From Roseomonas haemaphysalidis (GTDB lineage Bacteria > Pseudomonadota > Alphaproteobacteria > Acetobacterales > Acetobacteraceae): a stretch of 39,905 bases of DNA. How positions within the stretch are numbered: position 1 is the stretch's first letter; each line of letters starts with the position of its first letter. The DNA lies in assembly GCF_017355405.1 (NCBI RefSeq), contig NZ_CP061182.1, forward strand, positions 1 through 39,905. Direction: 5' to 3'. Below are positions 1,804 to 39,905 of the stretch, in pieces. A model generated the notes under the pieces. It worked only from the letters and a program-made list of their open reading frames with translations. It was not told the origin of the DNA and ran no database searches. Position numbers and translations under genes: made by a program.

Positions 1804-3525
1804 ATGTCGTGGGACTGGTACGAGAACCATGCCGCCGCCGTGGTGCCGCAGTACGAGGCCGCCGAGCCGGCCGTGCTGCACGCCTGGCTGGCCGACCTGC
1901 TGCCCGCCCAGCCGGCGGCGATCCTCGACATCGGCGCCGGCAGTGGCCGCGACGCCGCCTGGCTGGCCGCGCAGGGCCATGACGTGGTGGCAGCAGAGCC
2001 AGCAGCTGCCATGCGGGCCGAGGCCCTGCAGCGCCATCCTGAGCCCCGCATCCGCTGGGTGGCCGACGCCCTGCCCGAGCTCACCGGCGTGCTGCAGGCG
2101 GGTCTCTCCTTCGCGGTGATACTAGTCAGCGCGGTCTGGCAGCACCTGCATCCCAGCCACCGCCCGCGCGCCTTTCGCAAGCTGGTGTCCCTGCTGCAGC
2201 CCGGCGGCCTGCTGGCGTTGACCCTGCGGCACGGCCCGGCCGAGACAGATAGGGGCATGCACCCGGTGTCGCTCGAGGAGATCGAGGCGCTGGCCCGTGA
2301 CCACGGCCTGGCGGTGATCCGCCGCGTGGCGCAGGCCGACAGCTTGGGCCGGCCAGAGGTCTCCTGGACCGGTGTGGCCCTGCGGTTGCCGGATGATGGT
2401 ACTGGCGCCCTGCCGCTGCTGCGGCATGTCATCCTCAACGACCAGAAGCAGTCCAGCTACAAGCTCGGCCTCTTGCGCGTCCTATGCCGCGCGGCGGATG
2501 GCGCGGCGGGCCTGGCCCAGCCCGCCAGTGACGCCGAGGTGGTGCTGCCGCTGGGTCTCATCGCCCTGCACTGGCTGCGGCTGTATGCGCCGCTGGTCCA
2601 AGCTGGGCTGCCGCAGGGGCCGGGCAACCAGGGTCCAGATGGGCTGAGTTTTGCGGGGCCAGGCTTTCTCGCCCTGCTGTCCGGCGCCCTCCCCCTGGCC
2701 GAGCTGCGGATCGGCACCCGCTGCAGCGGGGCCGCGGCCCAGGCGCTGCACACCGCCCTCAAGGAGGCCGCCCGGACGGTCGCGGTGATGCCGGCACGGT
2801 TTATGACCTACCCGAACGGGGGACCGATCCTACCGGTGGAGCGCGGCCGCCCAGGGGCGGCCCCCAGCGCCCTGCTGGTCGATGCCGCCTACCTGCGCAG
2901 CTTTGGCAGCCTGCGGGTGCCGCTGCACCTGTGGCGGGCTTTGCAGCGCTTCTCGGCTTGGGTGGAGCCGGCGTTGGTCGCGGAGTGGAGCCGGCTGATG
3001 GGGGACTATGCTCGCCGCATGGGCCGAGCCCTAGACCCGGGCCAGGTGGCGCAGGCGATGGTCTGGGCAGAGCCAGAGCGCGATGTAGCGCTATCGCGCC
3101 GCCTAGCCCTGCAGCAGTTGCAGCGCGGTCAGCCGCTTCATTGCGTCTGGACCGGCAAGGTGCTGACCGCGGACAGCCTGGACATCGACCATCTGTTCCC
3201 CTGGTCGGCCTGGCCGTGCGGAGACCTGTGGAACCTGTTGCCGGCGCACCGGGTGGTGAACCAGCGGCTGAAGCGCGATCGCCTGCCGGCGGCGGTCACC
3301 CTGGCGCAGGCGGAGGAGCGCATCCAAAGCTGGTGGCAGGCGGCCTACCTGGCGCCCGCGGATCCGCTGCTGCCGGGGCGCTTTGTGCAGGAGGCGCGCG
3401 CTAGCTTGCCGAGGCTGGGTGAGACAACGGCGAACCCACGACTGCCGGAGGCGGTGTTTGCTGCCGTCGGCCTGCAGCGACTGCGGCTGCATCATGATCA
3501 ACAGGTGCCGGAATGGATAGCCTGA
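1804..3525 (+). CDS. SAM-dependent methyltransferase fused to an HNH nuclease domain
   Basis: A 573-residue two-domain protein. The N-terminus is a class I SAM methyltransferase: motif I LDIGAGSGRD at residues 41-50, an acidic strand-2 end (VVAAEP), and a LLQPGGLLALTLRHG strand. It lacks the NPPY or PC motifs of DNA methyltransferases, so the substrate may be a small molecule, protein or RNA. The middle (about 200-440) is a helical region without a recognised name, beginning RLPDDGTGALPLLRHVIL. Residues about 447-496 form an HNH nuclease: CVWTG, then DIDHLFPWS, then NLLPAHRVVNQRLK, the HNH_4-like pattern. It stands alone on the plus strand, convergent with the minus-strand pair at 3769-4972. 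Function is unknown. The mix of a modifying and a cutting domain within a plasmid of restriction genes suggests defence, by inference. The start ATG has only a weak upstream GAGG. Confidence 0.8.
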   Translation: MSWDWYENHAAAVVPQYEAAEPAVLHAWLADLLPAQPAAILDIGAGSGRDAAWLAAQGHDVVAAEPAAAMRAEALQRHPEPRIRWVADALPELTGVLQAGLSFAVILVSAVWQHLHPSHRPRAFRKLVSLLQPGGLLALTLRHGPAETDRGMHPVSLEEIEALARDHGLAVIRRVAQADSLGRPEVSWTGVALRLPDDGTGALPLLRHVILNDQKQSSYKLGLLRVLCRAADGAAGLAQPASDAEVVLPLGLIALHWLRLYAPLVQAGLPQGPGNQGPDGLSFAGPGFLALLSGALPLAELRIGTRCSGAAAQALHTALKEAARTVAVMPARFMTYPNGGPILPVERGRPGAAPSALLVDAAYLRSFGSLRVPLHLWRALQRFSAWVEPALVAEWSRLMGDYARRMGRALDPGQVAQAMVWAEPERDVALSRRLALQQLQRGQPLHCVWTGKVLTADSLDIDHLFPWSAWPCGDLWNLLPAHRVVNQRLKRDRLPAAVTLAQAEERIQSWWQAAYLAPADPLLPGRFVQEARASLPRLGETTANPRLPEAVFAAVGLQRLRLHHDQQVPEWIA

Positions 3526-5268: not shown

Positions 5269-6324
5269 TCAAACACGAGACACCATGTTCAGAAGGCATT
5301 GCTCTATTTCTTGCCAGGGTCGATCCAGAGCCAGCGTATGGATGCGCACGCGGTGCCCGGCAATGCGGTAGTCGAGCCGCAGATCCTGCGTGCTGGTGCG
5401 GGGGTAAAGTAGGATACCCTCCACCTGCTCGGCGGGCTGCCCACGCGGGTGAATGTGCCGCAGGTAGGTGAGCAGCTGATACAGGTGGCCGGAGCGCACT
5501 TTGTCCGTGCCGCCACGATACTGCGCCAGGGTAGTTTTGTAGAATTTGGCGTCCAGCACGATGGTGCGCTCTGGGCTGCGGAGCGTGACGTCGGTGCGCA
5601 TCGCTGGCAGAAAGCGGGCGTGGTTTGGATCCTCGGAGTTGGCGTCCCAGGTCAGGTGGTCTGCGCCCACCTGGAATGCTGTCTGCTCGCTGCGATAGAA
5701 GTTCCGCACGAAGGCCTCGAACACCGTCGACATCTTGGCCTCGTCCTCGAGGATGTCAGCAAAGCGCGTGCGCCCTGCCCCCTCGCCCGGTAGTAGGCTG
5801 TCGAGGATCAGGCTGCAGATGCGCAGCAGCAGATCGTAGTGGCGGTTGTTGCGGCCGAGCTGCACCCGCTGGAATAGCGCCCGCGTCAGCGGTCGATCCG
5901 ACACCCCCGCCATCTGCCGGTGCAGCGTGCGCAGCGCCTGCGCTTGCTTGGGATCGAGGCCCTCCCTGGCGGCCAGTGTCCGCAGCGTCGCCTTCAGCAC
6001 CTGGTTGTGCGGGATGTCGGCGGAGAGCTCGTCGAAGGCACACACCGCACGGCCGCGGATCAGAGTGCTGCGCTTGAAGGTCTCGGACAGCAGAAACCGC
6101 CCCCGCGGCGAGGCAGTCTCCTCTTCGAGCTCCAGGTAGTGCCGATCCAGCCCCCGCCGCAGCAGGCGTCGCACGCCGTTACTCAGCACCTTGGCGAACA
6201 GATCCACCAGATCGGGGGAGTCGGTGGCCGCCACCTCGATCGCCTGGCCCTCAGGAAAGCGGTCCCAGGCGTAGAGGAACAGGTAGTAGAGGTTCTGGAT
6301 CGGGATTGGGCTTGAGGGCGCCAT
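5269..6324 (-). CDS. mcrC: McrC-like nuclease subunit of a McrBC type IV restriction system
   Basis: A 351-residue McrC family protein, the endonuclease partner of McrB. It begins with the typical PIQNLYYLFLYAWD segment and contains the PD-(D/E)XK core near the C-terminus: MRTDVTLRS (D) followed by TIVLDAKFYK (D-A-K), then a QLLTYL helix. Known McrBC complexes use McrB GTP hydrolysis to translocate and McrC to cut DNA containing methylated or otherwise modified cytosine. The gene starts 12 bases after the mcrB stop on the same strand, so the two are co-transcribed. Length and motifs are complete and no damage was seen. Confidence 0.93.
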   Translation of the reverse strand: MAPSSPIPIQNLYYLFLYAWDRFPEGQAIEVAATDSPDLVDLFAKVLSNGVRRLLRRGLDRHYLELEEETASPRGRFLLSETFKRSTLIRGRAVCAFDELSADIPHNQVLKATLRTLAAREGLDPKQAQALRTLHRQMAGVSDRPLTRALFQRVQLGRNNRHYDLLLRICSLILDSLLPGEGAGRTRFADILEDEAKMSTVFEAFVRNFYRSEQTAFQVGADHLTWDANSEDPNHARFLPAMRTDVTLRSPERTIVLDAKFYKTTLAQYRGGTDKVRSGHLYQLLTYLRHIHPRGQPAEQVEGILLYPRTSTQDLRLDYRIAGHRVRIHTLALDRPWQEIEQCLLNMVSRV

Positions 6325-6336
6325 GGCCGTGGGCCC

Positions 6337-9174
6337 TCAGCTCAGCAGCGTGCTGCGCCACTGCTCCGCCCTGCTGGGGTCGTCGAACCAATACTCCTCG
6401 AGCAGCGGCACGATCTCGGTGTCCACCACGCGCTGGTACCAGGCGTCCTCCGCCTCAGGGGTCAAGCTGTCCTGGCCCGGCTCCGCCTCGGGAGGGCCGG
6501 CAAAGAAGCTGTGGCCGATGCAGAAGCCCGGGCCGAGGTTGGCGCGGTCCTCGCGGATCGTGGCATTCAGGTTGCCGATCCGGCTACGGATCCGCGCCAG
6601 CATGCCGGCGGAGACCTTCTTGTCCGCGAGGTGGGCGGCGAAGCTGTCTTCCGCAAAGCCTGGCTCAACGCTGACAAAGGCAAAGCGGCGGCGCAGCGCG
6701 TAGTCGACCATGGTCAGGCTGCGATCGGCGGTGTTCATCATGCCGAGGACGAACAGGTTCTGTGGCACGTAGAACCGCGCATCCGCCTCCTTGGCATAGG
6801 CCAGCTTGACCCCCCATTCCGGGCCGCGCTTGTCCGGCTCGATCAACAGCATCAGCTCGCCGAGGATCTTAGCCAGGTTGCCGCGATTGATCTCGTCGAT
6901 GATGAAAACGTAGGTCTCATTCGGGTCGGCCAGCGCCCGGCGGCAGAACTCCAGGAACACGCCCTCTTTCAGCTCAAAGCCGCCGCCGTTCGGCCGGAAG
7001 CCCTGCACGAAGTCCTCATAAGCGTAGGCCTGGTGGAACTGCACCGTGCGCACCCGGCTGGGGTCCTCATAGCCCATCAGCGCATAGGCCATGCGGCGGG
7101 CCACATAGCTTTTGCCCACCCCGGGGGCGCCCTGCAGGATCAGGTTCTGCTTGTGCCGCCAGACCTCGAGCGAGCGCTCAAAGGTCGTCTGCGGCATGAA
7201 CAGGCCCCTCATAGCGTCGTCCACCGTGAACGGCTTGCGCTCCTGCACCGCGACCGCTTTGGGGGCCTCGGGGGTGGCCGCGCCCACCGCGGCCTTGAGG
7301 CTGGCGATGGCCTCTGGGTCACCGGTCAGGCGGGTCAGGGTCTTCATTGGCAGCTGATAGGGGGCCGGCCACTCACCCCGCTGCACCCAACGGACGCTGC
7401 GGACGCTCTGCATGCTGGGGCGGCTGGGATCGAAGCTGTAGTCGCCGGTGACCACCCCGTAGCCGATCAGCGTGCTGCGGCCGCGCTTGGCGAAGACCAG
7501 GTCACCCGGTCGCATGACGTGGGCAAAGCCGTGGCAGGCGCGGGCGTCGTTGAACGGGTTGTCCGAGCGCGCGTAGACCTGCCGCAGGGCCGCGGTCATC
7601 TGCTCCAGGCTCGGGTAGCGGCTGAGGTCACCCATCTCGTCCCAGCCGATGGCGATGCGGCCCTGCTCGTAGAGCTCGTCCCAATGCGAGGCGTTCTGCC
7701 CCGGGGCCCAGAGCCAGACCCCCTGCCCTGGCTCGACCACCGACGGCTCGTCGTCGTCCGCCTCCTCCTCGGCCTCACCCACCGCATCCCCCGTCCGGGT
7801 GGGCACCGCCTCGATCACCCGGGCATAGGCATCCAACGCCACCCGCAGATCGGCCTCGATCTCTGCGTCCGCGGGCACCGCCCCGGCGGGGTAGAACTTG
7901 TAGGCGATGGTGCTGCTTTCGTAGTCGGCGGCCAGCGCCGCGTTGGTGCGCAGCCCCAGGGTGTCATCCAGCACATAGCCGGCCGTGGCGAGCTCGGGCA
8001 CCGCCACCCGGGCCCGCTGGGCGCGGCTTTGCAGCTCCTGCCGTCCGGCGACCCGCTTTAGGCCCTGGATGACGTCGGTGACCCCCTGGTTCAGCGTCAG
8101 GTAGACGCCGGATAGATCCTGCGGGAACAGAAACACCACGTAGAAGCCGCGCTGGGTGGAGGTGGTCACCCGGCGGTCCATCAGGGCGATCCAGGGCACG
8201 GTGGCCCAATTGCCCTTGCCGAGGCTCCAGCTGACCTGCACCTCCGGGTGGGCCTGCAGCGCCGGCATGCGGCTCAGCGCCGCCTTGATGCGCTCCAGCA
8301 CGGCCCCCAGCCCCGCCTGGCCAGCGAAGGGCCCCTGGCGGGCGTCTGCGAAGCGCTGCAGGAAGCCCTCCAGCTCCGGGCGCACGACCTCGTCCTGCTC
8401 GGGCACGGTCTCGGCCTCCTCGTCGGCGGGGAACAGCGGCTGGGCGGCACTGCTCGCCGCAGCATCGGGCACGGTGCTGGCCATCAGAGGGGCGAACAGC
8501 GTGGCGGTGCTGCGCACCAGCGCCTCCAACCCACCCTCACCCAGCGCATCGAGCTCCTCGGCGCTGACTGTGCGGCTGATGGCGCCGCTGGCCCAAAGGG
8601 CACCGGTTTCCGACCAGAGAAAGCGCAGCCAGGCGTCGAGCGAGGGGAAGTCGGCCTGGTTGGGCTGCAGCCGGGTTTTGCGGCGAAAGAACCACGGGCC
8701 GGGCGCGGCGTTGATGCGGGCCTCGAGCGCGGCGGCGGCGGCGGAGCCCGGGGCGGGCAAGGCCCGAAAGATCTTGGGCGCGGCGGCGCGCGCTGCGTCC
8801 TTGATCACCTTGGTCGAGAAGTCGCTGGGGTGGATGGTGGCGGCCAGGCCGAGCTCGATGCCGCTGCCCGAGACGATGGCGAAGACCTGCGGCATGCCAA
8901 CGAAGCCGCCGAGGTTGCGGCGGTTAAAGGCGCCGAACCACAGGTCCTTGGGCAGGGCGCCGCGCACGCCGGCAGCCACCGAGTAGCCGCTGGTCAACTT
9001 GGCATCGAACTGCTGGGAGCCACCCAGAGCCTCGACGGCGACCCCGGCGAGGTGCTGCAGGGCGGTGGTGATGCGCTGGTAGGCCTGCAGCTCCTCGGGG
9101 GACAGGTCCTTGTAGCGGGGCCTCGACCGGCTGTGCCGTAGCAGCTCGATGTCCGTCCGCGTGATCCGATCCAC
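6337..9174 (-). CDS. mcrB: McrB-like GTPase with DUF3578 and EVE-like recognition domains
   Basis: A 945-residue motor and specificity subunit of a type IV (modified-DNA) restriction system. Domains in order: an unassigned N-terminal region (about 1-235), an acidic linker, a DUF3578/MrcB N-terminal domain (about 265-455; GKGNWATVPWIALMD, then TTSTQRGFYVVFLF), an EVE-like domain (about 485-620; VWLWAPGQN, DLVFAKRG), and a McrB AAA+ GTPase (about 650-945). Walker A is GAPGVGKS (682-689), Walker B VFIIDEIN (756-763), and the McrB signature MNTADRSL (813-820). EVE domains of the PUA-like fold bind modified bases, so the protein carries more than one possible reader of modification. ATG 9174 gives a full product. 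mcrC follows at once. The unassigned N-terminal 235 residues are unusual for McrB. Confidence 0.93.
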   Translation of the reverse strand: MDRITRTDIELLRHSRSRPRYKDLSPEELQAYQRITTALQHLAGVAVEALGGSQQFDAKLTSGYSVAAGVRGALPKDLWFGAFNRRNLGGFVGMPQVFAIVSGSGIELGLAATIHPSDFSTKVIKDAARAAAPKIFRALPAPGSAAAAALEARINAAPGPWFFRRKTRLQPNQADFPSLDAWLRFLWSETGALWASGAISRTVSAEELDALGEGGLEALVRSTATLFAPLMASTVPDAAASSAAQPLFPADEEAETVPEQDEVVRPELEGFLQRFADARQGPFAGQAGLGAVLERIKAALSRMPALQAHPEVQVSWSLGKGNWATVPWIALMDRRVTTSTQRGFYVVFLFPQDLSGVYLTLNQGVTDVIQGLKRVAGRQELQSRAQRARVAVPELATAGYVLDDTLGLRTNAALAADYESSTIAYKFYPAGAVPADAEIEADLRVALDAYARVIEAVPTRTGDAVGEAEEEADDDEPSVVEPGQGVWLWAPGQNASHWDELYEQGRIAIGWDEMGDLSRYPSLEQMTAALRQVYARSDNPFNDARACHGFAHVMRPGDLVFAKRGRSTLIGYGVVTGDYSFDPSRPSMQSVRSVRWVQRGEWPAPYQLPMKTLTRLTGDPEAIASLKAAVGAATPEAPKAVAVQERKPFTVDDAMRGLFMPQTTFERSLEVWRHKQNLILQGAPGVGKSYVARRMAYALMGYEDPSRVRTVQFHQAYAYEDFVQGFRPNGGGFELKEGVFLEFCRRALADPNETYVFIIDEINRGNLAKILGELMLLIEPDKRGPEWGVKLAYAKEADARFYVPQNLFVLGMMNTADRSLTMVDYALRRRFAFVSVEPGFAEDSFAAHLADKKVSAGMLARIRSRIGNLNATIREDRANLGPGFCIGHSFFAGPPEAEPGQDSLTPEAEDAWYQRVVDTEIVPLLEEYWFDDPSRAEQWRSTLLS

Positions 9175-10999: not shown

Positions 11000-11758
11000 G
11001 TGGTCGCTCTCAGCAAACTCGACGATCCAGCCCCTGTTCTTCGAGCTCTCGCTGAATATGATCAGCTCGGCGAGGATGCCTTTCTCGCTAAGTATGGCTT
11101 TGATCCATCGCGGGCCTATTGGCTGCCGTACAATGGCAAGCGCTACGTTTCCAAAGCAGTCGTCGGTGCGGCCTTCGGATACCTCGCGCCTAGCGCTTAC
11201 CCGCTCAAAGCATCAGAGTTTGCTGGCGGTAAGGCCACGGTACAAAAAGCACTCACGCGCCTTGGCTTCACCATTGAGGTCAATGATGCTTCTCACCCGA
11301 CGACCAAGCCAACCGGTCTTAGCGCCAATGACGCTGACGAAGCTGCCTTCAATCCCAACGGAATGCTGGATGCTCGGGAGAAGGTCCTACGGGAGATCAA
11401 AGCAAGGCGTGGCCAGAAGGCATTCCGAGATCAATTATTGAAGGCCTACGACGGACGCTGCGCTATCAGCGGCTGTGCAGTGCTCGACGTGTTGGAAGCA
11501 GTACATATCGTTCCATACCGCGGCGACAACACCAATCACCCAATCAATGGGCTCCTGCTTCGGGCTGACCTGCACACACTCTTCGATTGCGGGCTGATCG
11601 CCATTGATCCTGATACCCTCAAAGTTTTGGTGGCAAGTGCTATCAAAGATCCAAGCTACCGAGAGTTCCATGGCCATATGCTGAGGCGGGCAATTGACCT
11701 TCGTCTTGCGCCGAGTCTTGCTGCTTTAAGACATCATCGAAAGGCCGCCCTGGTCTAA
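11000..11758 (+). CDS. HNH endonuclease with ScoMcrA-like N-terminal head domain
   Basis: A 252-residue protein. Residues about 12-91 (PVLRALAEYDQLGEDAFLAK, then YNGKRYVSKAVVGAAFGY) resemble the N-terminal head domain of ScoMcrA, a type IV enzyme that recognises modified DNA. Residues about 140-205 form an HNH_2-type nuclease: CAISGCAV, EAVHIVPYRGD, NGLLLRADLHTLFD. The start is GTG 11000, since the frame begins MVALSKLDDP and no better start was seen. It follows the DUF429 gene closely. It is probably a modification-dependent restriction nuclease, so this plasmid may carry two separate sensors of modified DNA. Substrate is not known. Confidence 0.82.
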   Translation: MVALSKLDDPAPVLRALAEYDQLGEDAFLAKYGFDPSRAYWLPYNGKRYVSKAVVGAAFGYLAPSAYPLKASEFAGGKATVQKALTRLGFTIEVNDASHPTTKPTGLSANDADEAAFNPNGMLDAREKVLREIKARRGQKAFRDQLLKAYDGRCAISGCAVLDVLEAVHIVPYRGDNTNHPINGLLLRADLHTLFDCGLIAIDPDTLKVLVASAIKDPSYREFHGHMLRRAIDLRLAPSLAALRHHRKAALV

Positions 11759-15519: not shown

Positions 15520-16866
15520 GTGCGGTTGATTTTGGGTGGAATTAACGGGCAGTACCTGCTCAACATCACTGAAAACGCTGCACGCGATACGGATGAAGTG
15601 CTAGCAGCCGTTGCCTACGCGACGAACACTGACCTGTTGTTTGACTGGTGTTGGAACAATAAGATTCCGCTGCGCTTCTATGGCCGGTTGGATGATCAGG
15701 TAGCTGTCGCCGCACCGGTTCTCGAAAATTTCCTGCGCCGCAGGTCGGGCATTCATGTTTGCAAGCTAGTGCAGCACCATCATGCCAAGGTTATCTGGTG
15801 GCGCGGGGTCGGCGTATATATCGGTTCGGCTAACCTGACCGATAGGGCTTGGTACAAGAACGTCGAAGCTGGCTGCTTCTTCACCGACGACGAGATTACT
15901 GACGAGATGGCGGCCGATTTGCACGGGCTCTTTGCTACACTCGAGGAACATGCCACCCCACTGACACAAGAGCTGCTGAGTGAGATGCGTGCACGGGCCC
16001 ACGAAGTGCATCAGGCGCGTAGTGATGCCAAACGCTTTTGGGGGCATCCCAGCCTTATCACATGGCCAGGGCTAGTGCAGACAACTCCGAAAGGCGCTGC
16101 ACAAAAGCGGCGAGATTCTTTCCTGAAAGAGTGGCACGCGACGTTAGAGCATTTGCGAAATATCGGTCTGACTGTCAGCCATCCTGAGAACCGGCCAATC
16201 TGGGTGAATGGTGCGGTGCCGATCGGTGCGCAGGCCGATCAGTTTCTACATGCCTTCTATTACCAACGGACCTTCGCTGGCACGAAAGCCAACTACGCAG
16301 CACATTACGAGCAGAACAAGATGCGTCCTGACAGCGCCCTTGCGGAAGCCGTAACTTGGTGGCGTGGCTTGGCGACAGCACCTCAATCTGAAGATTATAT
16401 GCTGAACGTCAGCGCGCCAGCGTTGCAAGCAGCCCTTGCCGAGCCGCAGCTGGCGACGATGACCGGTGAGCAATTCCGCGAAGTCTGTGACCGCGTTCAT
16501 GCCATACGAGATTACTCCCGCCGTGTGCGCAATCAGGCGGTCAACCTGCCGGATGGCACCAACTATAATATCCTGCAGAAGCTCGACGCGCTCGCCGACC
16601 GCATCTGGAACGACCAGGGATCGATGGGCGGGCGCGTGCGTGATCTGCTGCACCACATCCTCTACAACGGTTCGTCCGATCAGCTACCCGAGCGCCTCTG
16701 GCAGGGCATCGTCGATCCAAAATGGAAAATTGAAGGCTTAGGCGTCAGTGCTTTAGGCGAACTCGTCGGATGGGCCTTACCCGACCACTTCCCACCGAGG
16801 AACGGTCGTACGTCCAAGGCTCTGCGGGCGCTCGGCTATCCGGTAACGATTCACGTAGGACAATAG
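15520..16866 (+). CDS. Phospholipase D-like (single HKD) nuclease-type protein
   Basis: A 448-residue protein of the phospholipase D superfamily. A single HKD-type motif is seen near residues 87-110: HHHAKVIWW...VYIGSANLTDRAW, with the H, K and the GSAN...D positions. PLD-family nucleases with one motif act as dimers. The N-terminus (MRLILGGINGQYLLNITENA) and the long C-terminus have no named domain that I recognise. GTG 15520 is well supported by AAGAGGTGA just upstream. It appears as a single-gene unit. Within this plasmid a DNA-cutting defence role is plausible, but no partner helicase is adjacent. Confidence 0.8.
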   Translation: MRLILGGINGQYLLNITENAARDTDEVLAAVAYATNTDLLFDWCWNNKIPLRFYGRLDDQVAVAAPVLENFLRRRSGIHVCKLVQHHHAKVIWWRGVGVYIGSANLTDRAWYKNVEAGCFFTDDEITDEMAADLHGLFATLEEHATPLTQELLSEMRARAHEVHQARSDAKRFWGHPSLITWPGLVQTTPKGAAQKRRDSFLKEWHATLEHLRNIGLTVSHPENRPIWVNGAVPIGAQADQFLHAFYYQRTFAGTKANYAAHYEQNKMRPDSALAEAVTWWRGLATAPQSEDYMLNVSAPALQAALAEPQLATMTGEQFREVCDRVHAIRDYSRRVRNQAVNLPDGTNYNILQKLDALADRIWNDQGSMGGRVRDLLHHILYNGSSDQLPERLWQGIVDPKWKIEGLGVSALGELVGWALPDHFPPRNGRTSKALRALGYPVTIHVGQ

Positions 16867-30058: not shown

Positions 30059-33000
30059 TCAGCCTCTAGCCGTCCATTCATCAGGCTTCCGAAAAACCGG
30101 ATTCTCACTGGCCATGTCCAGGATATCGAGCTCAGGTAGCGCTCGGACGATCTTCATCGTCTCGAGGCTGACCGTGATTACGCGCTGGAACAGCTTTAGC
30201 GGATAGGCAGGGTCCCCAATGGTCTCAGTCGCATATCGGTTGGCATCGTTGACGATCCCGCTCGCCCTATCTGTTTTCACGCACTGGCGCTCCATCACCC
30301 ACTCCAGGGCGGGCTTGCCGTTCACCACGTAATCGTAGGCCTCTAGCGGGATGCCGGTCATGGTGATGTTGGCATTGTAGATGACCGTGGTCTTGTCCTG
30401 CTTTGGCCGCTTCCCACCGAACTTCATTTGCAGCACATGGAAGTAAGCTTCTGGGTCTAGGATGTTCTTCAAGCGTAGATCCCCCTGGACGATGGTCGCC
30501 GGGTAGGGCTCGACAGCCTCATAGCCAACGTGGAGCTCGCCGAGCTTACGGCCAGCTTCAACGAAGGCCCGGAAGTCGGCTGCCTTCTTCACCGCAGGGA
30601 TGCGAGGCAACTGCTTGGACAGATTGTCGGCGTAGCGGGCGCGGTAGTCCTCGGAATGCAGCAAGCCATATACGTAGTAGAAAAGGTCGTCCTTAGTGAT
30701 CTGCTCGCCTTGGTAAGCTGATTCGAAGTAAGCGAGCGCTGCGTCCGTTATACCATCGTTCCGCTTGATTTTTGGGCCACACTTTTTATCGACTGCCTGA
30801 AATAGGAGGTCATCAGCTTCCTCATCTTCCAAAGTATAGACGTATCGAGGAAAGTTCTGCCCATTATAATGAGTTTTGAACTCAGGAACGGCATCGAGCA
30901 TAAGCGCAGACGGCAGATTCGCTTCGCCGACCCCGATCACGCATATAACTCGGTTCTGAGTTTCCTGCTTCGGAAAAATCTTCGGAATCTGAAAAACGTA
31001 CTCATTCATCTTCCGATCGAAGTACATCCACTGTTTTGTGAATGGTCGATAAAGTGACGTAACAACTTTGTCTGGAGACACCTCAAAAGACGTGCCCTTG
31101 CCCACATCAGATTTAAGAGCTCGGCTCCAGCTAATTCTTTTTTCGTCCTTAGTAACAAAATTGCTAACAAAAAGGTCACGTGCTTTGGCTGAAGGAAACG
31201 TTTTTCTGAGGTCAACGAACTTGGATCGTTCGAAATTGTATGCTGACACCATTGCCGACACGTTTTTAATCAGAGAAGCATGGGAAAAATTGAAAACCCA
31301 TGCGTCACGCGCTGATTGAGCCCCTTGGGAGTAGGTTACAAAAATTGGAGCGGCGTGCCCATTACCCTTGTCGCCCATAGGTAAGAAATCAGAAAATGAA
31401 CTATCACGCTGATTGATCCAATCCGACTGCACATTTGGCGCAATCCGTTGCCACTTATCATCTACACTAATGCCAGAAATGCTACCGAATCGCTTAATGA
31501 TATCTAGTTTTTCTTTTTGACTGAGATAATCCCCTATATCGTAGAAGTGGATCTGGCCGTGGTTTGTGGAAGCGGGATTCTTGATCAGGAGCGTGATCGC
31601 AACCGGAGTACGGCTTCCAGAACCGAAAATTTTACCACCTTCGCGCCGCGAACGATCACCACTGGTCCGCTGATTTCCCCGCAGATGGAATATGTAGATA
31701 GTAGAAAATTCCTTGGTCAAGCACTTGCGAAGGCCGTCGGTGGCATTGCCCTCAATCCAACCTGCGTTGCTAACATAGGCGATTACACCATTGTCGCCGA
31801 GCCTATCACTCGCCCAGCGGATAGCACGAATGTAACTATCGTATAGTGCGTTCTTATTCGTAGCTGAAGTTTGAGCGGCGTAGGTTTTCCGAATGCGCCC
31901 ATCCAACTTTGGGTAAACAATATTTGCCGCATTATCGTTTGCACTGCCTTGGCCCACCGAGTACGGTGGATTGCCTACTATCACTCGAATGCCAAGCTTC
32001 TTTTGTCGGCTACGGCGACTGCTGTTATCAACCATCAAGTCGCCGACAAGGTCGCGATCCTGCTCATAGAGTTGAAAGGTGTCAGTCAGGCAGATGCCTT
32101 CGAAGGGCACATAATCGCCTCCCGCCACGCCATGGTAGGCCGCCTCGATGTTGATAGCGGCAATGTAGTAGGCCAGCAGCACAATCTCGTTGGCATGGAT
32201 CTCATGCCGGTACTTGTGCTTCAGTTCCTCGGGTTTGATGAGGCCAGATTGGAGCAGGCGGGTGATAAAGGTGCCGGTGCCCGTGAAGGGGTCCAGGATG
32301 TGGACGCCCTTGCTGCCCAAGGTCTGGCCAAACTCGGATTGCAGAATTTCGTTGACTGAGTGGATGATGAAGTCGACCACCTCGACCGGGGTGTAGACGA
32401 TGCCCAGCCTCTCCGTCATCTCCGGGAACGCTTTGCGAAAGAACTTGTCGTATAGCTCGACGATGATTCTCTGCTTGGCGCCAGCGTTATCGATGCCTTC
32501 GGCCCGCCGCCTGACGCTCCCGTAGAACTTTTGGAGGCTCTCTGATTCCTTCTCGAGGTTGTGCTCGTTCAGAGTGTCCAGCACCTGCTGCATGGCAACG
32601 GAAACGGGGTTCCGCTGAGCGAAGCTGTAGCCGTCGAAGAGGGCCTCGAAGACGGGGCGCGTGATGATGTGCTGGGCCAGCATCTCGATAGCTTCCGCCT
32701 CGCTGATGCTGCCATTCAGGTCGTCGCGGATCTCGGCCAGAAACTTCTCGAAGGCCACCCGCTCGGGCGAGCCCGGCTGCTGGATGACCGCGGCGATACG
32801 GGTGATATGCTTCCTCGCGATGTCGGCGATATCGGTCGCCCAATTTTCCCAATAATCCCGCTGCCCACACTTTTTGACAATCTTCGCCCGGATCGCCGAC
32901 GTGAACTCGTCGAATGTGAACGCTAGCTGCTCCAGGCCACTCGGCTTCGGCTGGCTGTCCCCATAGTCTCGGTCATCGGCCTCACCGCCGCCTGCCCCCA

Positions 33001-35011
33001 GGTCTAGCTGGTGGCCCTCCTTGGCGGTCTTGGTCGGCAGCCGGTCAGAGACGGCAATGACCTCAATCTGGGTGCTGACATCGACGCCAAGCTCCATCTT
33101 GTTGATGGTGGCATCGAAGCGCTCATCGTGTGCCCGGAGCGCATTCAGAATCTGCCAGACTACGCGGTAGCGCTCATTCTGGTTAAGAGCCTCTTCGGGC
33201 GTCATGTCCGCGGGGATTCCAACAGGAAGTATGACGTAACCCATTTTCTTGTTGGGCGCCCGACGCATCACTCGGCCGACCGACTGGACCACGTCGATCT
33301 GTGACTTCCGCGGGTGCAGGAACATGATGGCATCGAGAGCAGGGACATCGACGCCTTCGGATAGGCAGCGCGCATTGCTCAGGATGCGGCAGGTGTGCTC
33401 CTCGTGATCGGCCTTCAGCCACTCCAGTTCCTGCGTCCGGGTCTTGGCGTTGAAGGTCCCGTCCACATGGTGGACCTCGCACCGCAGGGGCTCCTGGTCG
33501 TCAGCGGGAAGCGCGTCTAGGTAGTCTTCCACCACGGCGGCGAACTGGTCACGGACAAGCTTGGAGGAGGCGATGTCCTTGCAGAACGCCAGCGCACGGC
33601 TCATGGGGCGTGTATCGCTGGCCACGTCCGCGGCTAGGTCTGCCTTTGTCAGGGCCTTATAGCAGCCGATGATCTTGGTCGCGTCATCGAGCTTGAGCTC
33701 GTTGTCGGTGTCCTTCAGGCGATTCTGGATGCTTGTGCTCACCATCTGCTCGTCGACGGCCAGCACGATGACCTTATAGTCTGTGAGCAAGCCATTCTCG
33801 ACGGCCCAGCCAAAGCCCCGCTGAAACAGGGTCTCGCCATAGTAGGCGGGATTATTCATCGAGTAGAGTTCAGCGGAAACCTCGTTGGCCTTGGTCCGCA
33901 CCGCGTCGCCGAAAATTCGAGGCGTCGCGGTCATATAGATCCGCTTTTTGCCCGCGATGAAGTCCTGGTTGTGGATCTTGACGAAGTTGCTCTCGTCCTC
34001 GCCCTCCAGGGTGGCGCCGGTAGTCCGGTGCGCCTCATCGCAGATGATGAGGTCGAACTCCGGGAAGTCATGCTTCGTTTGGGCGTCAGCGATCACTTGG
34101 ATGGACTGGTAGGTCGAAAAGACGACCGTCATCTCAGATGCCGTTGAGGTAGCTTTAGCAGCCAGCTTCACGGCGTCTGTCGTCGCTGGGTAGGCGAGGT
34201 CGTGAATATCGATTTCCCCGATATCCTCGTTGCTGCGGCTGCGCCTGCCGACCTGAACGTCTGAGCAGACGGCAAAGGACCTAAGCGGGGTGGTCGTATC
34301 GATAGACCATTCCCGGACGGTCTGGCTCATCAGGGCCAGTGAAGGCACGAGGAACAACACGAACTTGCCGGGACCGGCCAAGTCCTCTGAGATTTTTAGG
34401 CCCGTGAACGTCTTGCCGGTGCCGCAGGCCATGATGAGCTTGCCGCGATCGGCCTCGGCGAGCCCGGCCCGGACAGCCTCCAGGGCTTCCCGCTGATGAG
34501 GGCGGAGCTCCTTCTTCGGCGCCAGGATGATCTTGTCGTCGGCTAGGTAGGCCCGCCAGTCGATGGGGCTCTGCTCCAGCCGCTCGAGGCTGATGCGCGA
34601 GGTAGCGATGCTCTGGCCTGCCAGGGCGTCCTCGGCATTCTTCCCCCAAGGCACCTCGGTGGTGTCGATGACAAGCCGACGGGTGAAGGGGGCCTTGCCG
34701 GACGCTGTAAAGAAGGAGTCGATATCTGTCTTCTGAATGGTGTGGCCCGGCGCGTAGAACTTGCATTGAATGGCGCAATAGCCGTCCTCGTTACGGAGCT
34801 TTGCTACCAGGTCGATGCCGGTATCCGACTGCTTGACGCCTGCCGCTTTCGCGAAGTCCCCGAAAGTCCAAGCTTCCTCGAACTGCTGCGCCATCTCGGG
34901 GTCATGCTTCAAGAACTCAATGCAAAGCCGCTCGAAGTAGGTGCCCTTTTCGCGCTGCGTCTTGGCGCCAGCCCGGTAGCGCTCCAACAGTTCACGGATC
35001 CCAGCTGCCAT
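30059..35011 (-). CDS. Type ISP single-polypeptide restriction-modification enzyme
   Basis: 1,650 residues from ATG 35011; a GTG at 35032 would add seven. Domain order matches type ISP enzymes such as LlaGI and LlaBIII, which cut, move along and methylate DNA in a single chain. An Mrr-like nuclease comes first: GIDLVAKLRNEDGYCAIQCK (D...QxK, near residue 80). An SF2 helicase follows: MACGTGKTF (about 200), IICDEAHR (about 322), VDVPALDAIMFLHPRKS, and a QSVGRVMRR-type motif VI. Then a gamma-type N6-adenine methyltransferase: DPFTGTGTF (about 910) and NPPYSVGQG (about 1015). A target-recognition region ends the protein. Length fits LlaGI-type proteins (about 1,570 residues). The segment coding roughly for the methyltransferase end and recognition domain (30740-32040) is much more AT-rich than both flanks, suggesting exchange of specificity. 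Confidence 0.93.
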   Translation of the reverse strand: MAAGIRELLERYRAGAKTQREKGTYFERLCIEFLKHDPEMAQQFEEAWTFGDFAKAAGVKQSDTGIDLVAKLRNEDGYCAIQCKFYAPGHTIQKTDIDSFFTASGKAPFTRRLVIDTTEVPWGKNAEDALAGQSIATSRISLERLEQSPIDWRAYLADDKIILAPKKELRPHQREALEAVRAGLAEADRGKLIMACGTGKTFTGLKISEDLAGPGKFVLFLVPSLALMSQTVREWSIDTTTPLRSFAVCSDVQVGRRSRSNEDIGEIDIHDLAYPATTDAVKLAAKATSTASEMTVVFSTYQSIQVIADAQTKHDFPEFDLIICDEAHRTTGATLEGEDESNFVKIHNQDFIAGKKRIYMTATPRIFGDAVRTKANEVSAELYSMNNPAYYGETLFQRGFGWAVENGLLTDYKVIVLAVDEQMVSTSIQNRLKDTDNELKLDDATKIIGCYKALTKADLAADVASDTRPMSRALAFCKDIASSKLVRDQFAAVVEDYLDALPADDQEPLRCEVHHVDGTFNAKTRTQELEWLKADHEEHTCRILSNARCLSEGVDVPALDAIMFLHPRKSQIDVVQSVGRVMRRAPNKKMGYVILPVGIPADMTPEEALNQNERYRVVWQILNALRAHDERFDATINKMELGVDVSTQIEVIAVSDRLPTKTAKEGHQLDLGAGGGEADDRDYGDSQPKPSGLEQLAFTFDEFTSAIRAKIVKKCGQRDYWENWATDIADIARKHITRIAAVIQQPGSPERVAFEKFLAEIRDDLNGSISEAEAIEMLAQHIITRPVFEALFDGYSFAQRNPVSVAMQQVLDTLNEHNLEKESESLQKFYGSVRRRAEGIDNAGAKQRIIVELYDKFFRKAFPEMTERLGIVYTPVEVVDFIIHSVNEILQSEFGQTLGSKGVHILDPFTGTGTFITRLLQSGLIKPEELKHKYRHEIHANEIVLLAYYIAAINIEAAYHGVAGGDYVPFEGICLTDTFQLYEQDRDLVGDLMVDNSSRRSRQKKLGIRVIVGNPPYSVGQGSANDNAANIVYPKLDGRIRKTYAAQTSATNKNALYDSYIRAIRWASDRLGDNGVIAYVSNAGWIEGNATDGLRKCLTKEFSTIYIFHLRGNQRTSGDRSRREGGKIFGSGSRTPVAITLLIKNPASTNHGQIHFYDIGDYLSQKEKLDIIKRFGSISGISVDDKWQRIAPNVQSDWINQRDSSFSDFLPMGDKGNGHAAPIFVTYSQGAQSARDAWVFNFSHASLIKNVSAMVSAYNFERSKFVDLRKTFPSAKARDLFVSNFVTKDEKRISWSRALKSDVGKGTSFEVSPDKVVTSLYRPFTKQWMYFDRKMNEYVFQIPKIFPKQETQNRVICVIGVGEANLPSALMLDAVPEFKTHYNGQNFPRYVYTLEDEEADDLLFQAVDKKCGPKIKRNDGITDAALAYFESAYQGEQITKDDLFYYVYGLLHSEDYRARYADNLSKQLPRIPAVKKAADFRAFVEAGRKLGELHVGYEAVEPYPATIVQGDLRLKNILDPEAYFHVLQMKFGGKRPKQDKTTVIYNANITMTGIPLEAYDYVVNGKPALEWVMERQCVKTDRASGIVNDANRYATETIGDPAYPLKLFQRVITVSLETMKIVRALPELDILDMASENPVFRKPDEWTARG

Positions 35012-35124
35012 TCCCCAATCCCCCCGAGGCACAGATAACCCGAGTCATAGCTGAGCTATGCAGGCCTGTCAGGAGTCGGGCTTAAGCTAGGTGATGGCAG
35101 TGGACTTGCTTGCAGATGCCGAGC

Positions 35125-36574: not shown

Positions 36575-37219
36575 GTGACCGTAGATTCCGAGCTGCTTCA
36601 GAAGGATCTCGAGCGTCTCTGCCGGCAGCGCTTTGAGCTCGGCGTGGTTGCTGAGGTCACCGGCGTGCCCTTGCCCCGCCTATCTCAGTGGCTGAAAGGC
36701 CAGGCGTTTGTCTTGTTCGAGGAGCAGGCGCCTGGCACTGGCCGCCGTCGCCTATTCCATTTGGTGGACGTCTACACCGTCCGCTTCTTCGCGGTGCTAA
36801 CGGATGTCGAGGGAGGCCTCGGCCTTCCTTTGAAGACTGCAAGCCGGGTACTGGATACTGCCTGGGGTCTCACCGAGACCGATGAGGCCGCTACCATGGC
36901 GCCCGGAAGTTGGATCGACCCACGTTCTGACTTCGACCGAGGGCATTTCGGACATCTCAACCCGTGCCGTCCTCGAACCCGCCCGCAGTGGCTGATCGGC
37001 GTCCGGGTGCATCATGTGCATCCGCGCCACAGCTTCTGGCGTGGTCGCTTCACAGAGCAAGCTGAGCGTCCTGACCGCAGTGGTGATCGCACGCCAGCCG
37101 ATCTCTTCTTTGCCCTCGAGGCGACGCCGCACTTGCTGGACGTCAACGCCCAGCTGTTTCAGCGCCTTCGTTGGGCTGACGCCCTCAACCGGCTCCCGCC
37201 GGCTTTCGAAATTCCCTGA
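36575..37219 (+). CDS. MerR-like DNA-binding protein upstream of the VapE-like gene
   Basis: 214 residues from a GTG at 36575 with GGGGTAGGG upstream. The N-terminal 70 residues (FELGVVAEVTGVPLPRLSQWLKG...RLFHLVDVYTVRFFAVLTDV) resemble a MerR-type winged helix, with two helices and a wing that reads a site. The rest has no recognised fold. The stop is 22 bases before the VapE-like start, so the two are co-transcribed. A regulator or a helicase loader are the main guesses. Confidence 0.6.
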   Translation: MTVDSELLQKDLERLCRQRFELGVVAEVTGVPLPRLSQWLKGQAFVLFEEQAPGTGRRRLFHLVDVYTVRFFAVLTDVEGGLGLPLKTASRVLDTAWGLTETDEAATMAPGSWIDPRSDFDRGHFGHLNPCRPRTRPQWLIGVRVHHVHPRHSFWRGRFTEQAERPDRSGDRTPADLFFALEATPHLLDVNAQLFQRLRWADALNRLPPAFEIP

Positions 37220-37241
37220 GCACCCATCAAGAAAGCTGTTT

Positions 37242-38256
37242 ATGACCCATGTTCAGAGTTCCCCCGCGGCGGTATCGCCCGCGGGAAGGCCGCCGCTCGC
37301 CTTGCTGCAAGCGGCTCCGGCTCGCCGTAAGCGTCCCAGTCTGGTTGCCTTCTTGAAGGCCACTGATCAGCAGGCGCTGGCCAACATCGAGCCTTGGTTC
37401 CGAGCACTGTTCCCCACTGCGCAGAGACAGCCTGGTACCGGTGCCTGGTACGTCCTGGCACAGGACATCGGGCGAGAGCCTGAGGAGGATCTTTCTATAG
37501 ATCCTATTGAAGGCGGCTATGACCACGGCATCGGGCGGCCTCGCAGCCCGGTTGATGTAGTTCTGCAGTGGCAACGCCTCGCCACCCGCGAGGAAGCCGC
37601 CCTCTGGCTCTGCGGCAAGATGGCGCTCGATCCCACTCGGCTGGGCTGGGCGGGTGCTGCAGCAGCGGCCCGTGCCGCAGGTCTGCCCGCCTGGCAGCAG
37701 GAGTGTCAGGTAACCTCGGACGGCATTCCGCGACCCAACTTGGCCAACGCTCTGTTGGCTCTGCGGGGTGATCCTGCACTGGCTGAGCTGCTGGCGCAGG
37801 ATGAAATGCTACGCGCGCCTTTGCTGCGAGCGGCTGTGCCGGGCAGCAACGGGCCAAAGGATCGCTTTCCATGCCCCCTGCGTGACACGGATGTGACGGC
37901 GATCCAGGAGTATCTTCAGCACATTGGTATCCCCGGGCTGAGCAAGGATGTGGTGAATCAGGCTGTCGAACGCCGCGCGGCCGAGTGCGCCGTACACCCG
38001 GTGCGGGACTATCTCGACGCTCTGGTCTGGGATGGCACGCCGCGGCTGCAGGGCTGGCTGAGCACCTATCTCGGGGCGGTGCATACCCCTTATACAAGCG
38101 GCATCGGCACCTTGTTCCTGACGGCCATGGTAGCCCGGGTCTACGCGCCTGGCTGCAAGGCCGACTACATGATGGTGCTGGAAGGCGACCAGGGCGCCCG
38201 CAAGTCCACAGCATGCGGCATTCTCGGGGGCGCTTGGTTCTCTGATGCTCTTCCGG
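37242..38256 (+). pseudogene. VapE/VirE-like P-loop protein, N-terminal part (split by IS21)
   Basis: The first 338 residues of a VapE/VirE-like ATPase, starting at ATG 37242. The Walker A motif GDQGARKST lies at about residues 315-323, just before the insertion point, after YMMVLE. After the target duplication the frame enters the IS and stops at TGA 38277-38279. With the IS removed it continues at 763 as DIRVGKDAV, and the whole protein would have 543 residues. The long frame upstream (ATG 37014) overlaps the MerR-like gene and was not chosen. Family members act as primase/helicase-like or satellite replication proteins. Confidence 0.93.
38249..38256. repeat. 8-bp target site duplication, left copy (TCTTCCGG)
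   Basis: TCTTCCGG lies directly before the IS21 left end and is repeated exactly at 755-762 directly after the right end. IS21 elements make target duplications of 4-8 bp. Removing the element and one copy restores an open VapE-like reading frame across the site. Confidence 0.93.
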
Positions 38257-38360
38257 TGTGGATCGGCGTGGAAGATTGACCCCTCTGGCGGGGTGATCGG
38301 CGTTCAAAACTGACCCCCCAAATTTGAGATGCTGCCCCTCCTCAGAGGGGGAGCGGGGGG

Positions 38361-39905
38361 ATGCTGACGGTGGACATGATGGCCCGGGTGCGTCGGGCGC
38401 ATTTCGTGGACGGCAAGTCGATCAAGCAGATCACGCGCGAGCTGGGTCTGGCGCGCAACACGGTGCGGCGGGTGCTGCGCTCGGGCGAGACAGCCTTCAC
38501 CTACGAGCGTCAGGTGCAGCCGCGGCCCAAGCTCGGAGCCTGGACGCAGTTGCTGGAACAGCGGCTCAGCGCCAATGAGCGGCTGCCCAGTCGCGAGCGG
38601 CTCGATCTGATCCGCGTGTTTGAGGACCTGCAGCAGCAGGGGTTCACCGGTGGCTACGATACCGTGCGCCGCTACGCCCGGGCGCGACAGCGGCAGCGTG
38701 GCACGGCCACCTCAGACGCCTATATCCCGCTGAGCTTTGAGCCTGGCGAGGCGTACCAGTTCGACTGGTCGCAGGAGGTCGTGGTGCTGCATGGCGCCAC
38801 GGTCGCGGTGCGGGTGGCGCAGATGCGGCTGTGTCACAGCCGGATGCTGTTCGTGCGTGCCTATCCGCGCGAAAGCCAGGAGATGGTGTTCGATGCGCAT
38901 GACAAGGCGTTCGCGTTTTTCCGCGGCACCTGTCAGCGCGGCATCTATGACAACATGCGTACAGCCGTCGACGTCGTCGGGGTTGGGCGCGAGCGACAGT
39001 TCAATCGCCGGTTCCTGCAGATGTGCAGCCACTACCTGGTCGAGCCAACGGCCTGCACACCGGCCTCGGGCTGGGAGAAAGGTCAGGTGGAGAACCAGGT
39101 CGGCCTGGTGCGAAACCGGTTCTTTAAACCACGCCTGAAGTTCGCCTCGCTGCATGACATGAATGGCTGGCTACTCGAGCAATGCGTGCTTTACGCCCGC
39201 AGCCACCCGCATCCCGAGCGCCGCGACTGCCCGGTGTGGGAGATGTTCGAGCAGGAGCGTCCGGCCCTGGTGCCCTATGTCGGGACGTTCGACGGGTTCA
39301 ACGCCCGCACCTCAGCTGTCTCCAAAACCTGCCTCGTGGCCTATGACAAGAACCGCTACTCGGTGATGGCGCAGGCGGTCGGGCGGCCGGTCGAGGTGCA
39401 TGCCTATGCCGAGCGGATCCTGATCCGCCAGGACGGACAGGTGGTCGGCGAGCATCCGCGCTGCTTTGGCCGCGAGCAGATCGTCTACGATCCCTGGCAT
39501 TACGTGCCGGTGCTGGCGCGCAAGCCCGGTGCGCTGCGCAATGGTGCCCCGTTCAAGGGTTGGGTGCTGCCCGGCGCTCTGGGCCGTGTGCAGGGGCGGC
39601 TGCGTGGCAGCGCGGATGGCGACCGGCAGATGGTGGCCATCCTGCAGGCTGTATCCCTGGACGGTCTGCCCGCCGTGGAGGCCGCCTGCGCCGAGGCGCT
39701 CGCGGCAGGCCTGTGCAGCAGCGATGTGGTGTTGAACGCCCTGTCGCGCCAGCGTCCCGCAACCACCCCGCCGGACATCGCCACCCCCGACGCATTGCGG
39801 CTGCGGCATGAGCCGATCGCCGACTGCGCCCGTTACGACACCCTCAGGAGCCAAAGTCATGGAACGACATCAGGTGCTGGAGCTGATGAGCGAGCTCAAG
39901 CTGGT
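38361..39905 (+). CDS. istA: IS21 transposase IstA (continues at 1-21)
   Basis: DDE transposase of IS21, which cuts and joins the element ends. The frame is open from ATG 38361 to the window end and, across the circular junction, stops at TGA 19-21, giving 521 residues, the usual IstA size. An N-terminal helix-turn-helix (HFVDGKSIKQITRELGLARN) is followed by an rve-type catalytic core. The likely catalytic acids are the D of YQFDWSQE, the D of YDNMRTAV and the E of SGWEKGQVEN. The start is preceded by a G-rich ribosome-binding stretch (GGAGCGGGGGG). The 3' end overlaps the istB start by 68 bases in another frame, a standard IS21 arrangement that couples translation of the two proteins. No internal stop was seen, so the gene appears functional. 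Confidence 0.93.
   Translation, partial: MLTVDMMARVRRAHFVDGKSIKQITRELGLARNTVRRVLRSGETAFTYERQVQPRPKLGAWTQLLEQRLSANERLPSRERLDLIRVFEDLQQQGFTGGYDTVRRYARARQRQRGTATSDAYIPLSFEPGEAYQFDWSQEVVVLHGATVAVRVAQMRLCHSRMLFVRAYPRESQEMVFDAHDKAFAFFRGTCQRGIYDNMRTAVDVVGVGRERQFNRRFLQMCSHYLVEPTACTPASGWEKGQVENQVGLVRNRFFKPRLKFASLHDMNGWLLEQCVLYARSHPHPERRDCPVWEMFEQERPALVPYVGTFDGFNARTSAVSKTCLVAYDKNRYSVMAQAVGRPVEVHAYAERILIRQDGQVVGEHPRCFGREQIVYDPWHYVPVLARKPGALRNGAPFKGWVLPGALGRVQGRLRGSADGDRQMVAILQAVSLDGLPAVEAACAEALAAGLCSSDVVLNALSRQRPATTPPDIATPDALRLRHEPIADCARYDTLRSQSHGTTSGAGADERAQAG
39859..39905 (+). CDS. istB: IstB, N-terminal codons (continues at 1-682)
   Basis: ATG at 39859 opens MERHQVLELMSELKL and the next codon (GT) is completed by base 1 (G). 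The protein then continues [10 protein letters not shown], exactly the usual IstB N-terminus. Together the two parts encode 242 residues. This in-frame continuity is one of three independent signs that the window is a circle. Confidence 0.93.
   Translation, partial: MERHQVLELMSELKL

Follow-up and report, generated by a model that had tools for sequence, protein, structure and literature searches.

The stretch of Roseomonas haemaphysalidis DNA analysed here (the window) comprises contig C6 in full (NZ_CP061182.1; 39,905 bases), and its plus strand carries an open reading frame (ORF; 1804–3525) with an ATG start, whose product of 573 residues joins a methyltransferase (MTase), a middle domain resembling the sulfur-binding domains (SBDs) that read DNA phosphorothioate (PT), and an HNH nuclease. 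The class I S-adenosylmethionine (SAM) MTase domain spans 1804–2385 (residues about 1–194) and holds the SAM-binding motif LDIGAGSGRD at 1924–1953 (residues 41–50). The SBD-like middle domain spans 2395–3072 (residues about 198–423), with candidate pocket residues, picked out by conservation, at Y219-K220 (2458–2463) and M329-P330 (2788–2793). The HNH_4 nuclease core is located at 3142–3288 (residues 447–495), and conservation places the catalytic D462-H463 at 3187–3192. The fusion is a likely defence enzyme.

The original prediction described a class I MTase, not of the DNA-modifying type, joined to an HNH nuclease, and the profile search with each domain that it proposed recovers both. Pfam places Methyltransf_25 on residues 40–135 (9.1e-13) and HNH_4 (PF13395) on residues 447–495 (25.4 bits, above the gathering threshold of 22); no DNA-MTase family matched the protein, only Methyltransf_25/23/11/12 and similar. 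The NCBIfam scan of the protein gave no model at or above cutoff, and PADLOC gave mad2 over the MTase part (1.6e-16) and a single marginal HNH match (PDC-M62B, 0.065). The AlphaFold model of the whole protein has a mean pLDDT of 91.7 and a pTM of 0.88. In the fold search with this full model the MTase alone found counterparts; the closest solved folds to the HNH part are Cas9-type DNA nucleases, and the middle domain aligns to two solved SBDs. The MTase domain carries several conserved arginines, so its substrate is probably anionic (nucleic acid or nucleotide).

The fused form is conserved. The scan of genome contigs found at least 466 stretches that encode relatives, some of them partial; the 80 loci kept among those listed span Pseudomonadota, Acidobacteriota, Nitrospirota, Cyanobacteriota, Chloroflexota, Rhodothermota and others, many being metagenome assemblies whose taxon labels may be mis-binned. 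The frame is unbroken inside the contig in 75 of the 80, the others being interrupted by a stop (L057, L074), a frame break (L076, L080) or the contig end (L052). Alignment A3 comprises 71 of the 80 loci and the window (72 rows), omitting the close copies L068 (93% to L066), L085 (95% to L084) and L090 (88% to L089) as well as L072, which has no upstream start codon; L079 and L081, likewise without one, are retained. For the C-terminal and MTase alignments, 33 of the 72 rows were taken. The window protein aligns with the 71 full-length relatives from its start and over its entire length, so chance explains neither the ORF nor the fusion. In A3 the SAM residues G44, G46, G48, R49 and D50 are each present in 72/72 rows, with A45 also invariant, and the HNH residues D462, N477, N486 and K490 are likewise present in 72/72 and H463 in 71/72. 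Both active sites are intact across the 72 proteins, over large divergence.

The C-terminal part matches in 21 of 398 Pseudomonadota genomes. Fifteen near full-length matches, that of the window's own genome included, all begin their alignment within the first five residues of the window protein, and hence all are fused; in the other 14 the aligned stretch is free of stops. Among 58 relative genomes (own included), a match at E ≤ 0.001 is present in 30, though often a weak one confined to the MTase. G016 holds the sole intact full-length copy besides the window, and the near full-length copies of G020 and G022 contain a stop, accompanied in G022 by a frame change. Cut-down or frame-broken pieces of the gene also lie in related genomes (G002:C170, G016:C28, G016:C54, L005 8019–8483), and such truncated and frame-broken copies suggest fast turnover. 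By tblastn, 48 of 72,556 plasmid records have a match, eight of these spanning at least 80% of the query; the 50,697 phage records gave one match, through the MTase only, and the C-terminal alignment found no relatives in the viral contigs searched. The pairing, earlier described as unusual, is no isolated oddity but that of a widespread family, which has a two-gene form as well.

The same MTase subfamily also occurs alone in prophage-like contigs (L008 2336–3519; L100–L103, L107–L111). There it directly follows a gene for a small protein, by eye membrane-spanning; 9 of 14 viral loci have this partner gene, and in phi458 the pair adjoins an integrase. Together, the prophage MTase and the small protein may form a two-gene prophage cargo of their own.

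The two-gene equivalent of the fusion, in which the MTase and HNH parts are adjoining genes, is observed in L133, L134, L157, L159, L164, L165 and L166. In L133 and L134 the MTase gene is followed within a few bases by the middle-HNH gene, whose HNH part is recognised by the C-terminal model (3.0e-5 and 2.6e-4, respectively). Among 18 plasmid records with relatives of the L140 nuclease, eight were inspected; an MTase gene lies upstream in five, a HIT gene in two (L156, L158) and neither in one (L160). The MTase gene overlaps the nuclease gene in L157, L164 and L166 and lies about 0.3 kb away in L159 and L165. Profiles of the fused family, with E-values set for a nominal 100,000 sequences, recognise all four separate MTases tested (L133 1.9e-61, L159 3.2e-21, L134 4.6e-16, L157 1.5e-14) and both separate nucleases tested (L157 6.2e-15, L159 1.3e-7). 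The middle alone, compared with the set of L140, L133 and L134, gives an E-value of 3.3e-5 and a probability of 72%. The pair in L157, an Acinetobacter plasmid, sits beside a BREX locus, the order being HNH endonuclease, MTase, middle-HNH, WYL regulator, DUF1819, DUF1788 and brxC; the first of these genes (196–1830) is presumably of the DUF262/ParB type.

A HIT-family gene replaces the MTase gene before the middle-HNH gene in L140 (1088–2538), L156 (2077–3544) and L158 (2187–3559), that of L140 being one that we take to be HIT from its motif; the swap hints at interchangeable nucleotide-active partners. Nuclease relatives with neither an MTase nor a HIT gene in the few kb viewed are L153, L160, L161 and L163. 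Plasmids of Nostoc, Hymenobacter and Deinococcus, among others, carry stand-alone relatives, and in one Nostoc plasmid such a relative lies beside an SBD-HNH-like gene, a set defined as proteins similar to the SBD protein of L071.

The middle region had been proposed as a recognition module; it does look like one, and it most resembles a DNA phosphorothioate-reading domain. According to passages of PMC6224610 and PMC7470945, the sulfur cavity of ScoMcrA is formed by H116, R117 (K in most homologues), Y164, P165 and A168, with tighter binding in the Y164M mutant, and that of SprMcrA by Y31, Q32, Y78, P79 and A82. Across 48 C-terminal rows (33 fused, 7 MTase-paired, 3 HIT-paired and 5 with neither), the sole invariant columns of the middle domain are K220, L224 and P330 (48/48), and Y219 is present in 47, with H in one. 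In the 72 fused rows, K220 and P330 are each found in 72/72, M329 in 70/72, and position 219 is Y in 70 and H in two. Y/H219, K220 and P330 are thereby conserved in all 48 rows and may match the SBD pocket residues in kind, though at a different spacing.

Several points weigh against an SBD identity. The K–P spacing is 110 in the middle domain and 47–48 in the SBD enzymes, and P270 (42/48 rows) rivals P330 as the pocket proline. Furthermore, sequence profiles do not link the middle to SBD families: the middle-domain profile had no significant match among the SBD-HNH-like proteins, the C-terminal profile recovered no SBD among solved structures, and the window protein has no match at E ≤ 0.1 to NCBIfam NF045808, the model of PT-dependent SBD-HNH endonucleases. 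Because the profiles are unlinked, the spacing is longer and P270 is a rival, the domain is named SBD-like and the protein is kept out of the SBD-HNH class.

The PT-synthesis marker dndC is above cutoff in none of 19 genomes that carry the fusion gene (16 with an intact copy; G020, G022 and G296 with a broken one), a match in G349 falling below cutoff, and in none of 14 control genomes. This scarcity, for which no base rate was measured, is compatible, weakly, with a nuclease harmful to a phosphorothioating host. In L151, a cyanobacterial plasmid, a gene with the annotation DNA phosphorothioation-associated putative methyltransferase is located close to an SBD-HNH-like gene (1–488 and 1977–2873), a possible parallel for MTases of non-DNA type near PT readers.

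Upstream of the fused gene, a second nuclease recurs in a minority of loci. With queries drawn from the neighbours, 13 of 75 fused loci were found to have an HNH_2 gene at most 1.4 kb upstream, on the same strand in 12; this first test is circular, since the queries came from the neighbours themselves. An independent model, built from the HNH_2 gene of the window and seven plasmid HNH proteins, gave, in the 941,503 bases of all flanks together, 15 domain matches in 14 genes, and 13 of the 14 genes lie in the first 1.5 kb upstream, which makes up 11.3% of the flank. The corresponding p of 7.6e-13 is not used, as L079 was counted twice and relatives were counted as independent. The 1.5 kb upstream flank is present in 66 of the 75 loci, and among the nine shorter ones only L051 shows HNH_2. 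In total, 62 of the 75 loci lack an HNH_2 gene in the first 1.5 kb upstream, and the partner is therefore optional.

By blastp, the N-termini of the 14 HNH_2 genes and of a Deinococcus one form four groups. Placed on the tree, these labels require five changes against a minimum of three, a value as low being reached in 17 of 200 shuffles (L083, with its HNH_2 gene 3.3 kb away, is included, and L003, not in A3, is left out); a single event on the tree does not explain the groups. We take the variable N-termini to be EVE/SRA-like, Pfam naming none of them: among seven partner proteins the HNH_2 part alone was named in six, and the Deinococcus protein (L009) has an additional AraC_binding match below threshold. 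The protein directly upstream of L071 matches the solved SBD 8h0l (1.4e-4). Ten neighbours each were chosen by eye for Pfam and PADLOC, a sample from which general defence-gene enrichment is not measurable; the ten scanned include a Thoeris ThsA adjoining L022 and a type IV restriction helicase adjoining L083. One fixed operon partner for all members is rejected, as gene contexts vary, and the largest neighbour gene cluster (9 loci) was set aside, as its first member resembles a spurious high-GC frame.

The window itself is a defence-rich, plasmid-like element, as had been anticipated. McrC and McrB (type IV restriction) lie at 5269–9174 on the minus strand (McrBC PF10117, NF007277; MrcB_N, AAA_5), an HNH_2 nuclease at 11000–11758 on the plus strand (PF13391, 2e-12; tblastn match), a PLD gene at 15520–16866, and a type ISP single-chain restriction-modification enzyme at 30059–35032 on the minus strand (Mrr_cat_2, ResIII, Type_ISP_C), together with UvrD-like and ParA-like genes. 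The HNH_2 gene is of the same class as those found directly upstream of relatives elsewhere. The fusion gene had been placed between McrBC and other nuclease genes; McrBC does flank it on one side, but the opposite side holds istB of an IS21 element and a VapE fragment, and the HNH_2, PLD and type ISP genes all lie beyond McrBC as seen from the fusion. istA (38361–39905), named from its position before istB and not by family search, overruns the contig end and istB starts at base 5, so the replicon is probably circular. The IS21 element (38361–39905, 5–682) apparently splits a VapE-like gene (37014–38279, 786–1379).

We lean towards reading the protein as a single-polypeptide, type-IV-like restriction factor with an SBD-like reader, an HNH_4 cutter and a companion methyltransferase, and we infer DNA as the target, the reading of a modification and a role in defence. 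The SBD-like middle would dock on DNA that bears a certain mark on its backbone or bases, whereupon the HNH_4 domain would nick or cut this DNA. The N-terminal MTase, by sequence of the small-molecule/tRNA type, would be a functional companion that modifies a related anionic substrate or regulates the nuclease; it may alter the same mark or its product. In some loci, the HNH_2 nuclease encoded upstream, with its variable N-terminal domain, may act alongside. Since the same domain combination recurs in many bacteria, the protein probably represents a kind of restriction enzyme not yet described. It is rather doubtful that it amounts to a new kind of restriction-modification, in which the MTase would write, mask or remove a DNA backbone or hypermodified-base mark, the SBD-like domain would read it and the Cas9-type HNH would cut, with HNH_2 as an interchangeable operon partner.

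A one-chain restriction-modification enzyme, whose MTase would put a non-canonical protective mark on self DNA and whose HNH would cut unmarked DNA, is improbable. It would account for the MTase and nuclease staying together, fused or as a two-gene pair, in a layout analogous to that of type IIG enzymes. However, no DNA-MTase family matched, and the HIT-paired and unaccompanied nuclease relatives lack an MTase gene within the few kb viewed, so the nuclease family seemingly does not depend on protection by this MTase.

An abortive-infection or toxin-like RNA factor, with the MTase acting on tRNA or other RNA and the HNH cutting nucleic acid upon infection, is likewise an unlikely account. The MTase has fold matches to CmoM (8joz/4htf) and METTL6 and matches PHROG 'tRNA methyltransferase' at 3.6e-11, but these tRNA-enzyme matches are of a generic class I kind, on a par with those to many small-molecule and protein enzymes. 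Moreover, the HNH part is closest to DNA nucleases, as noted above, and the HNH parts of two HNH_2 partners score on the NCBIfam PT-DNA restriction endonuclease model (79.5 and 51.8 bits, below the cutoff of 180). A selfish or addictive nuclease-MTase pair carried by mobile elements and merely gathering in islands, to which the widely varying gene contexts, decayed or partial copies and plasmid carriage would be suited, has a low probability given active sites conserved over large divergence, recurrent upstream nuclease genes, a BREX-adjacent copy, and a turnover equally typical of defence genes.

Restriction enzymes that read DNA modifications, and others with their own DNA methyltransferase, are already known. 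New with respect to the libraries and texts searched is the conserved, widespread union of an SBD-like reader, a Cas9-type HNH and an MTase unlike DNA enzymes; none of them holds a description of the protein, in line with the original proposal of an undescribed candidate. Among the papers listed in literature searches for this architecture, no title or abstract opening describes it, and the word 'methyltransferase' was not found in the main text of PMC7461809 as retrieved. The passages of PMC10853773 and PMC12839542 name SAD(SRA)-HNH and cytosine methylases, among others, and do not mention an MTase-reader-HNH fusion. If confirmed, the type-IV-like factor would bring a further chemistry of sensing or marking into bacterial immunity and would raise a directly testable question, namely the substrate of the methyltransferase and the reason for its tie to a nuclease.

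Compared with known systems, the protein shares separate parts with several. Septu/retron PtuB gave no match to the window protein at E ≤ 0.1, each of three PtuB models matching one of 76 members of alignment A2 at E ≤ 0.01. MADS, a multi-gene mad operon, is represented by mad2 (PADLOC PDLC04134), which matches the MTase domain in 76/76 A2 members; the match is confined to the MTase part of the window protein and may be generic to class I MTases. MADS is rejected: the seven ORFs scanned gave, beyond mad2, only mad8, a generic ATPase similarity (2.6e-5 to IstB, 3.4e-4 to McrB). Type IIG restriction-modification fusions combine MTase, recognition part and nuclease in a single chain, but the window protein has no DNA-MTase family and shows no sign of DNA methylation, and a DNA-MTase identity is likewise rejected. 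The HNH_2 nucleases with variable N-termini lie close upstream of 13 of 75 fused relatives, but belong to another HNH family and have no methyltransferase. Cas9/IscB-type HNH domains share the HNH_4 core, whereas the window protein has 573 residues, a C-terminal HNH and, in Pfam, no further Cas9 part. The SBD-HNH PT-dependent endonucleases (ScoMcrA, SprMcrA, EcoWI; NF045808) share the order of reader domain then HNH and, apparently, a similar reader fold and the Y/H-K and P signature; they carry HNH_2, whereas the window protein has an HNH of the HNH_4/Cas9 type, a larger middle and an added N-terminal methyltransferase.
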